From the IMG/VR virus record IMGVR_UViG_3300033148_005434, positions 1-24,953 of that record: a stretch of 24,953 nt of DNA; one strand, 5' to 3'. How positions within the stretch are numbered: position 1 is the first letter of the stretch; the number at the start of each line of letters is the position of its first letter. The position numbers and the translations under genes are program-made. The notes beneath the pieces were generated by a model. That model ran no database searches. It saw only the letters and a program-made list of their open reading frames with translations, and was not told where the DNA came from. This stretch comes from a virus. Shown piece after piece: positions 20,962 to 23,111 of this stretch.

Positions 20962-21003
20962 GCTTCATATTCTCGACTATCTCATCAAAATGCAAATCAA
21001 ATA

Positions 21004-21023
21004 TTCTTATGGCCGCATAAGAA
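21004..21023. promoter_or_regulatory. 20-bp perfect palindrome, possible operator
   Basis: TTCTTATG, four bases GCCG, then CATAAGAA: perfect 8-bp arms. It lies 43-62 bp upstream of the NUMOD-like gene's start and next to the leftward terminator. This is the right place for a regulator binding near its promoter. A short RNA hairpin is the alternative. No other copy was seen in the window. Confidence 0.35.
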
Positions 21024-21035
21024 ATTTAGATCCCT

Positions 21036-21079
21036 AGAAAAGAAAAAACCCCATTGAGTTTTTATATTCAATGAGGTTT
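21036..21079 (-). terminator. Leftward intrinsic terminator
   Basis: On the minus strand AAACCTCATTGA pairs with TCAATGGGGTTT (12 positions, one mismatch) around a 10-nt loop and is followed by a run of U (TTTTTTCTTTT). It ends transcripts coming from the right, that is, from the repressor gene or from an RNA in the gap 21080-21484. No protein-coding gene lies directly before it, which makes that gap interesting. Confidence 0.75.
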
Positions 21080-21484
21080 AATCAGTTCGTCAAGTTTTGC
21101 CGACCAGACAGGAAGATTATATCTAATTTTCTATCAATGTCTACTTTTCGGTGCTTATCTGCACCAAAATCTCACATAAACTTGACCGCTACGGGTAAAC
21201 CAACGGTTGCGATAAACGAAGAAAGTTACATAACGCGCTTGAGACCGGCGCGACTAAGTGATCACCGAACAATTCAGGTGATGGCGTTAAAACACTCGAA
21301 TAACTGCATGACCGCCATGGAATGGCAAAAGGTGGGCCAGCACCGATAGGACTTAGAACATCCTCAATTCTGGTGAGTGATAATTAGTTATGTGATTAGA
21401 GACAAAAATTAGACTTCTTTTGTATCCATGCAGAACGGTCTAAAATGACAACTGTGGTTTAATTTTTCTGTCCTTGGAGTTTTT
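21080..21484 (-). other. Gene-free interval with small hairpins; possible leftward RNA
   Basis: No convincing coding gene is seen in either direction. Small hairpins are frequent: AACC-AAC-GGTT near 21199, GGTGC-TTATCT-GCACC near 21151, CACC-GAA-CAA-TTC-A-GGTG near 21264, and on the minus strand GCCAT-TCC-ATGGC near 21315. A weak minus-strand promoter-like pair TTGTCT-N17-TATCAC lies near 21375-21403, and the interval ends at the leftward terminator. It may be a small RNA of about 330 nt or simply the long 3' untranslated end of the repressor message. Confidence 0.3.
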
Positions 21485-21751
21485 TTATTTGCGCCATGGA
21501 ATATCTGGCCTAATTTCCTCTCTCGGGATTGATGATAAATCTTCAAACATTTCAATAAACATAATTGGAATGCCACTTTTGTCGCGGTGCATCCAGCTCC
21601 ATATTGAGCCAATTCGTATCGGTTTGGCGTCGGGGCTCTCTTCTCGGATTTTTACCGTTAATTTCCGTGCGACTTCTGCTGGGCCACCCATAAGCTCAAC
21701 CACCATGCATGCTGCAGCTTGGTTGGCTTCTGTTGTTTCTGTTGGGGTCAT
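21485..21751 (-). CDS. YdaS/Cro-like helix-turn-helix repressor
   Basis: An 88-residue protein from the ATG at 21751, chosen over one 12 codons earlier because AGGAAAACTTATG places a ribosome site correctly. The segment ELMGGPAEVARKLT followed by IGSIWSWMHRDKSGIP is a helix-turn-helix of Cro/YdaS type, and the C-terminal REEIRPDIPW matches the conserved R-x-E-L/I-R-P-D-I/L-W end of that group. Such proteins repress phage promoters. The gene sits downstream of one of two overlapping divergent promoters, the usual place for a switch regulator, and is likely to control both. Confidence 0.75.
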   Translation of the reverse strand: MTPTETTEANQAAACMVVELMGGPAEVARKLTVKIREESPDAKPIRIGSIWSWMHRDKSGIPIMFIEMFEDLSSIPREEIRPDIPWRK

Positions 21752-21791
21752 AAGTTTTCCTAATGTATAGATAAATATAATAATCAAAATG

Positions 21792-21820
21792 AGTATAGTT
21801 TATTATTGACAGGTAATCAA
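21792..21820 (-). promoter_or_regulatory. Leftward sigma70 promoter for the repressor gene
   Basis: On the minus strand TTGATT (21815-21820) and TATACT (21792-21797) are separated by 17 bp, 41 bp before the repressor ATG. It overlaps the -35 region of the rightward promoter, so both cannot be used at once. Confidence 0.6.
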
Positions 21821-21834
21821 TCGATGAGTAATAT
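21806..21834 (+). promoter_or_regulatory. Rightward sigma70 promoter with operator-like repeat
   Basis: TTGACA (21806-21811), 17 bp, TAATAT (21829-21834): a perfect -35 and a fair -10. Start of transcription is expected near 21841. The inverted repeat ATTGA-N7-TCAAT (21805-21821) covers the -35 boxes of both divergent promoters and is a natural site for the neighbouring repressor. It drives the long structured RNA region. Confidence 0.75.
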
Positions 21835-21940
21835 GCTTCCACTCGCTCAGAGAGATAAACCGAGGTAACTCGGGGAAAGGGGTAAGTCCTACACGACCCC
21901 CACCATTTATGGCAATTCTGAGCAAGCCGAAGTGACGTAC

Positions 21941-21978
21941 ATAGCTACGGATTCAGTTCTTGACTGGATATAGCTACG
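21941..21978 (+). repeat. Direct repeat ATAGCTACG flanking a hairpin
   Basis: Nine identical bases occur at 21941-21949 and 21970-21978, on each side of the ATTCAGT/ACTGGAT hairpin in the 5' part of the structured RNA. It suggests a symmetric internal element such as paired docking segments, but chance is possible at this length. Confidence 0.5.
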
Positions 21979-22226
21979 AGTTATTAAGACTGTATTGGGG
22001 GATAACCATGCTCCTTGGGCCGCTGTGAGGTGGTTCGCAGTAACAAAGCGAGTAGTGATCACTAAAGGGTAGAACATTAAGTCAGAGCGGGTACGCAAAG
22101 GCGTGTGTTCAATGATTTAACACGGACGGGGCTGGGAGGTCCAAAGTTCGTCATGATTAGTTGAGTAGCCGACAGGTTAAAGACAGAGGGTGTGTTGTAT
22201 TTTGATTTTTAACGAGATTGAAGCAA

Positions 22227-22376
22227 CTGAACAGCGCACATCTTCGTAGGTTGCAGATAGTATAGCTCAGCTGGTTAGAGCGTAACCCTTATAAGGTTGT
22301 TGTCGGAGGTTCAAATCCTTCTACCATCACATGCAAACGACTTGAAATCGTTTAAAAATGCAAAGACGCTGTTCAG
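22227..22376 (+). repeat. 10-bp inverted repeat enclosing the tRNA
   Basis: CTGAACAGCG at 22227-22236 is the exact reverse complement of CGCTGTTCAG at 22367-22376. In RNA this makes a closing stem around a 130-nt domain that contains the tRNA. It is the clearest sign that the tRNA is a built-in part of the surrounding RNA rather than a neighbour. Confidence 0.75.
22256..22329 (+). tRNA. tRNA-Ile(UAU), reads AUA
   Basis: A full cloverleaf can be drawn: acceptor GATAGTA/TACCATC (one A-C mismatch at the fourth pair), D stem GCTC/GAGC with the loop AGCTGGTTA, anticodon stem TAACC/GGTTG with loop CTTATAA (anticodon TAT at 22290-22292), a 5-nt variable loop, T stem GGAGG/CCTTC with loop TTCAAAT, then discriminator A. 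CCA is not encoded. UAU reads the AUA isoleucine codon, which bacteria usually read with a lysidine-modified CAU tRNA; AUA codons are frequent in this phage's genes, for example in the oxygenase gene. It lies within the structured RNA, so processing by RNase P and 3' enzymes would have to cut the larger RNA. Confidence 0.9.
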
Positions 22377-22689
22377 CGTAAGGTGAAAGTAACTTAAATC
22401 TACAGCCTTCGGGTAATGTAGAGCTCCTAAAGATGCAATCTGATGGAGTTTTGTCGAGGAGAGCACTCTGGGCGTTTAGCGGCGTTGAGGGGAATTGAGA
22501 TGGCAGAATAGCTTTGCGGAATAGGTCTACCGCCAGACCTTTATAACTAAACGGCAGTTATGTGGTTCTACTTTTGCGCGAGGGTTTCCGAGGCTTGAGT
22601 GGACAGAGGGGCAAGGTCAGCTGCAAACTGGCTCGTAATCCCCCTAAAGGAGCCGCACGATCCCTGTAGTCTCAGGGGATTAAAACACT

Positions 22690-22835
22690 AAAGTTTTTAT
22701 AAAAGAGCACGGGCAGTAAAAAAAGTAACTCTGCACCCATCACCGAAAGCCCGGACGGCGGGATGTGCGGCAACGGAGCATCGCAAGATGGAGCGAAGTC
22801 GGAACAAGCAGGTTGTGCTCTTTTATAAAAACTTT
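22690..22835. repeat. 21-bp perfect inverted repeat around a structured 104-nt core
   Basis: The left arm at 22690-22710 and the right arm at 22815-22835 are exact reverse complements for 21 bp (AAAGTTTTTATAAAAGAGCA plus C on the left). The core is GC-richer and has GGGCAG/CTG-CA-CCC (22711-22738) and CATC-GCAA-GATG (22779-22790, GNRA loop). In RNA it forms a long stem closing a folded domain. No transposase or target duplication is seen. It ends 9 bp before the ribosome site of the next gene (AAGGAGAG at 22844-22851). It is either the 3' domain of the giant RNA, a processing site for RNase III, or a separate RNA element. Confidence 0.85.
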
Positions 22836-22856: not shown

Positions 22857-23111
22857 ATGATCTTACAGTTGAACATCGAAGATAATCACAAAATAATCCT
22901 ATCAAGAGATGCTGGCAAAGCGTTGCTGCAGGACAACCCTGTTGTATTCAAAGGAAAAGCAAAAAACCTCACCAAAGCACTTAAAAAAGCATCTAATGGA
23001 AGCTATTGGTTAAGTGTTGTTGATATAAAAGAGAAAATGGAGCTTCTTCTCACGGTTAAAATCAAAAACAAAAAACTAGAGTTGTCGTGGCCTAAAAGGG
23101 AACAGATATAA
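22857..23111 (+). CDS. Small hypothetical protein after the structured RNA
   Basis: An 84-residue protein; ATG at 22857 is preceded by AAGGAGAG at 22844-22851, so a TTG start five codons earlier, which lies in that site, is rejected. The protein is basic, with a strand-rich layout (LQLNIEDNHKIILSRDAGKA, then YWLSVVDIKEKMELLLTVKI). No family was recognised. It lies directly after the long inverted repeat and could be translated from the same transcript as the structured RNA. No role can be given. Confidence 0.7.
   Translation: MILQLNIEDNHKIILSRDAGKALLQDNPVVFKGKAKNLTKALKKASNGSYWLSVVDIKEKMELLLTVKIKNKKLELSWPKREQI

Follow-up and report, generated by a model that had tools for sequence, protein, structure and literature searches.

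The window analysed here, a stretch of 24,953 nucleotides from the virus record IMGVR_UViG_3300033148_005434, carries a phage gene for a divergent GOLLD RNA, in whose linker lies a tRNA-Ile(UAU)-like module (coordinates below are on the + strand unless stated otherwise). Considering this locus together with other GOLLD genes, we think it likely that most of the modules found in such linkers are tRNA-like domains which are not excised, the window's own copy being a recent capture, and that this divergent GOLLD would assemble into a cage as published members do.

Using the Rfam GOLLD model (RF02032) in E-value mode, we found a full-length match (model positions 1-416 of 416) to 22185-22678, the conserved 3' domain with the tRNA-like module in its linker, at 122.2 bits and E=3.3e-33 (E=1.0e-35 when the search was repeated on the single record). 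The gathering score of RF02032 is 150 bits, a curators' cut-off and not a structural feature; since 122.2 bits falls below it, a default Rfam scan at the gathering score found the tRNA alone and missed GOLLD. A covariance model of our own, built from 19 other GOLLDs over their last 134 positions, with the window and its nearest relative (L021) left out, matched the window at 22538-22678 (E=2.6e-7) and L021 (E=3.5e-8), in both cases at the GOLLD places only. Among the closest relatives, RF02032 scores were 128 bits for L021 and 132 bits for L392, while further relatives with the same linker architecture reached 150-208 bits and the cultured phages MD18, DSS3_MAL1, Cp1R7A-A1, Karma, BL57 and Phosso, with the same linker type, 160-194 bits. 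The sequence-only reading had proposed a GOLLD-type RNA, possibly of a divergent family, and had suggested searching with the GOLLD and ROOL models; both of its suspicions were borne out, the locus belonging to a sublineage that scores under the Rfam gathering score. ROOL is likewise a large ornate RNA of phages and prophages, and its cage has the linker in the lumen (PMC12286853), but its model gave no match in the window at E up to 10. When the whole region was compared with phage DNA by similarity, the matches listed were to the tRNA only. As tRNAs are already known to be present in some GOLLD linkers (PMC12286853), we regard the locus as a new and divergent example of an already known type.

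The gene is preceded by a sigma-70-like promoter (TTGACA-N17-TAATAT, 21806-21834, 10 of 12 matches), a promoter-like element noted in the initial description and near-identical in L021. Between 21835 and 22840 no credible gene was present, in agreement with the approximately 1 kb without a coding gene first noted: only two open reading frames reached 60 amino acids (63 and 77), both on the minus strand. The less-conserved 5' domain of the RNA (21840-22184, start approximate) fills the interval between the promoter and the Rfam match; the L021 alignment (80.7% identity) spans from the promoter through the GOLLD RNA, 5' half included, and a GCAAGCC block at about -260 to -317, common to 37 of 102 relatives, supports this domain. 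The locus probably uses its own promoter to make a single RNA of about 840 nt, with ends predicted from sequence; from the promoter to the 3' end near 22680 this RNA exceeds the 800 nt expected of GOLLD RNAs. Its location is that of a phage gene, with genes for a major head protein, an internal virion protein, RecT and a RecE-like protein within the window. Whole-region folding energy (z = -1.9) is too weak to decide, so that the structural evidence consists of the family match and covariation.

Compared with the Rfam family and its member env-38, the window shares a full-length 3' domain, a divergent 5' half, a length of about 840 nt, a phage location and a variable linker which is flanked by a covarying helix and holds a tRNA-like element, whereas it differs in its score (122 bits), in its setting, beside recT/recE-like genes and in a window that contains no tRNA array, and in having a tRNA-Ile(UAU) module with a near-complete acceptor.

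The RNA had initially been placed at 21841-22835 and described as ending in a long inverted repeat. A GOLLD RNA gene is present there, but GOLLD proper stops near 22680, and the repeat, which is perfect over 21 bp (22690-22710 with 22815-22835), forms a separate hairpin beyond that end (22690-22835, structured loop, fold z = -4.9). Its stem was kept in L021 with one compensatory change, it was absent from L392 and L393, and no close copy was found in phage records; it is possibly a MITE-like or small-RNA element. Next to the GOLLD RNA, 22857-23111 encodes a small protein of 84 amino acids with no family matches; by eye, a similar open reading frame follows GOLLD in L392, and the stretch is missing from L021. 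On the other side, about 400 bases at 21070-21470 look non-coding and may be a second structured RNA (76% conservation with L021 over 20985-21500, fold z about -1.8, nine compensatory pairs when the two sequences are folded together, whichever the strand), and 21485-21787 on the minus strand holds a divergent gene whose YdaS-like match stays below threshold (27.7 bits against a cut-off of 30).

As in other GOLLDs, a variable linker separates the first hairpin of the 3' domain from the AAAGC(A)AAAG motif. This linker is enclosed by a perfect 10-bp helix (22227-22236 with 22367-22376) that covaries in relatives and that the sequence-only reading had correctly seen around the tRNA-Ile(UAU). When 37 linkers were aligned, 98.4% of the cells were paired, double changes numbered 253, compared with 63 in shuffles and no more than 49 with the structure slid, and covariation was 0.578 against at most 0.122 when slid; covarying stems in related phages, proposed beforehand as a check, were thus found around the linker. 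In the predicted fold of 22242-22345, the acceptor stem of the window's module runs straight on into a scaffold stem, formed by UUGCA (22251-22255), which extends its 5' side, and UGCAA (22332-22336), three bases past it. Equivalent scaffold pairings (e.g. UUCGC/GCGAA and UUGCA/UGCAA) were read by eye in the subset of linkers with GTAGGTTnGCA. Whether such a helix surrounds the module in all GOLLDs was considered too; it was clear in this subset and not in the wider set, and we do not claim it family-wide because the search pattern fixed part of one strand. A pairing of the module's 3' end with an upstream ATCAAAG stretch was also rejected, as it fitted L051 and not its relatives.

The module itself (22256-22330) was called a tRNA-Ile(UAU) by both ARAGORN and Rfam (65 bits). 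Its anticodon loop, CUUAUAA (22288-22294), has U33, the anticodon UAU (22290-22292), A37 and A38; six of the seven acceptor pairs are formed, with a mismatch at 4:69, and the module ends in ACA with no encoded CCA. Without its acceptor ends, the body is about 80-86% identical to phage tRNA-Ile genes and to unannotated places in plasmids.

Module and locus were variable among close relatives. L021 is syntenic and 81% identical across the RNA; three more relatives (L391, L392 and L393) were found by a RecT protein search. The GOLLD lies at the same place beside RecT in L021 and L392, and at the same place in L393. In the linker, L392 and L393 have a Lys(UUU) module with a full acceptor stem next to a CCA-like end, and L021 a module of Lys(CUU) type in which three acceptor pairs form. 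L391, whose RecT is 83% identical, gave no GOLLD match in Rfam, and in the 470 bases downstream of the same promoter region an HNH-endonuclease-like gene (5398-5883 of L391) replaces the GOLLD. Given this missing GOLLD and the differing modules, the RNA seems dispensable in this lineage, and the linker module seems to turn over.

We then compared modules across the family. A 3'-end motif survey of viral contigs yielded at least 117 loci, and pattern scans together with cultured phages gave 114 distinct linkers, 88 of which had a recognisable tRNA-like core; a linker-motif scan of genome contigs added none to the set. With a pattern anchored on the neighbouring hairpin only, the core was present in 63 of 74 distinct linkers. 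By eye, three linkers that start with GTAGGTT (L015, L308 and L316) form two hairpins with no recognisable tRNA core. In six others (L255, L269, L270, L303, L311 and L325) the D-loop GG is lost and the T loop changed while the other arms remain, reflecting either further decay or a different fold.

Across linkers, covariation maintained the stems of the D, anticodon and T arms and, in the acceptor, the four inner pairs. Acceptor statistics were taken from the 56 modules that did not match the acceptor-touching pattern and are thus free of its bias; like those for U36 below, they count related sequences and not independent events. The inner pairs 7:66, 6:67, 5:68 and 4:69 were formed in 98, 98, 96 and 93% of these modules, above all 500 shuffles, whereas the outer pairs 3:70, 2:71 and 1:72 were formed in 36, 34 and 46%, no higher than in shuffled sequences. 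This contrast survived redundancy filtering in a less sharp form (sets of 36, 22 and 11 modules: 91-95% for the inner three pairs, 73-78% for 4:69, 36-68% for the outer pairs). Free-standing tRNAs from the same contigs were 89-96% paired at all seven acceptor positions, and 797 of 837 had an encoded CCA, against 1 of the 88 modules; this control is somewhat flattering, since the program that called the free tRNAs, ARAGORN, is biased towards paired acceptors and perhaps also towards CCA.

Several anticodon-loop bases were also kept. In 76 seven-base loops, U33 was present in 70, U36 in 69, A37 in 66 and A38 in 66. The frequency of U36 (69 of 76 modules) compares with 264 of 806 free tRNAs (33%; p=7e-24, a value inflated by shared ancestry), and U36 was kept in 26 of 30 modules of a set filtered at 85% identity. 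The anticodons are mostly GUU, UCU, CUU and UUU, which correspond to ANN codons.

Because the outer acceptor is at chance, CCA is encoded once in 88 modules and U36 is present in 69 of 76, the linker 'tRNAs' look, from their sequences, like tRNA-like domains of the GOLLD RNA misannotated as tRNA genes. ARAGORN called 75 of the 88 modules tRNA genes, which explains the tRNA-Arg, -Lys, -Leu and -Gly annotations in cultured phages; in the Caulobacter crescentus phages Karma and Ccr5, the GOLLD module is of the Lys type and has a short acceptor. The original description of a whole tRNA built into the RNA holds for the window, where two programs call tRNA-Ile(UAU), but the family mostly has a short-acceptor module without CCA. 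The window's module is one of 6 in 88 with all three outer acceptor pairs formed; it is probably a more recent capture of a tRNA in a pre-existing slot, and it could still be processable as a tRNA.

Indeed, the strongest alternative is that the linker element is a working tRNA-Ile(UAU), released from the GOLLD transcript through RNase P cleavage and 3' processing to read AUA codons. Acceptance by both programs (Rfam at 65 bits), the six of seven acceptor pairs with the outer three among them, the complete acceptors in L392 and L393, and the frequency of AUA in the window's main genes, at 71 of 362 isoleucine codons (20%), all agree with it. We nevertheless hold it to be rather unlikely, as CCA is not encoded, pair 4:69 is mismatched and the acceptor merges into the UUGCA/UGCAA scaffold stem; moreover, the same slot in the 81%-identical L021 has another module with only three acceptor pairs, and the outer acceptor is unselected across the family. 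Less probable still is that the modules are passive, i.e. functionless tRNA sequences decaying in a tolerant linker near tRNA arrays. GOLLDs do lie near tRNA arrays in many relatives, close relatives carry differing modules, and in some linkers the module is degenerate or absent; however, covariation extends over the four inner acceptor pairs and the stems of the D, anticodon and T arms, with 96-100% of cells paired, which counts against this explanation because decay would not give such pairing, and U33, U36, A37 and A38 are kept in the anticodon loop. Finally, a new family of large RNAs merely resembling GOLLD is a very improbable reading of the region: its score is under the Rfam cut-off, but it has a full-length match at E=3e-33 and an independent model match, relatives sharing its linker architecture exceed the cut-off, and published searches with the same model took a cut-off of 1e-5 (PMC12286853).

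The tRNA-like-domain reading has a precedent in the Mycobacterium aubagnense GOLLD, in which an internal pseudo-tRNA was predicted and gave no detectable product (PMC6582537). The two cases share a tRNA-like sequence within a GOLLD gene; the mycobacterial one is a single observation, described as a pseudogene, whereas here the short-acceptor element is recurrent, although an earlier general statement of such degeneracy may exist. Viral and cellular tRNA-like structures and tmRNA use the tRNA elbow fold outside the ordinary role of tRNA. GOLLD modules differ from these in that the acceptor is shortened and held within a larger RNA, which would make the usual charging impossible. Several phages have a match to a tmRNA-type Rfam model (alpha_tmRNA and/or permuted tmRNA) no more than about 2 kb away from the GOLLD (L244 at 2257-2672, L245 at 2100-2516, and also L247, L252, L248, L249 and L259), and the DSS3_MAL1 record annotates ssrA near its GOLLD.

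To our knowledge, the cage structure of GOLLD RNAs has been solved and no function is known for them. The GOLLD env-38 forms a closed 14-mer by cryo-EM, with the linker inside; for other GOLLD members, published work describes expression in lytic growth as well as 14-mer cages, and pull-downs have recovered ribosomes together with GOLLD (PMC12286853). By analogy, the window RNA would form a cage similar to that of env-38, closed by about 14 copies, and with the linker inside, the module would be inside too. In most members, the module would be a permanent tRNA-like domain, neither excised nor charged nor active in translation. The cage could then display or hide tRNA-like baits with ANN-type anticodon loops, which would bind a tRNA-handling host factor (the ribosome, a modification enzyme or a defence tRNase) during lytic growth. 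Such a bait or decoy role is our leading idea of function, speculative and rather doubtful as it stands. Extended to a large phage clade, the proposal is tentative: GOLLD RNAs would carry a tRNA-like domain with an acceptor of about four pairs locked into the scaffold and an anticodon loop that is mostly U33-N-N-U36-A37-A38, and the about 14 mimics of each cage might bait or hide a factor.

If the linker tRNAs are conserved mimics, the tRNA annotations in Caulobacter Karma and Ccr5 relatives, Phaeobacter MD18 and Mesorhizobium Cp1R7A-A1 are incorrect. Asking what the cage contains would then mean asking which protein or ribosome binds a tRNA mimic with a short acceptor and U36-A37, and a mimic-bearing cage would give GOLLD RNAs a testable function.
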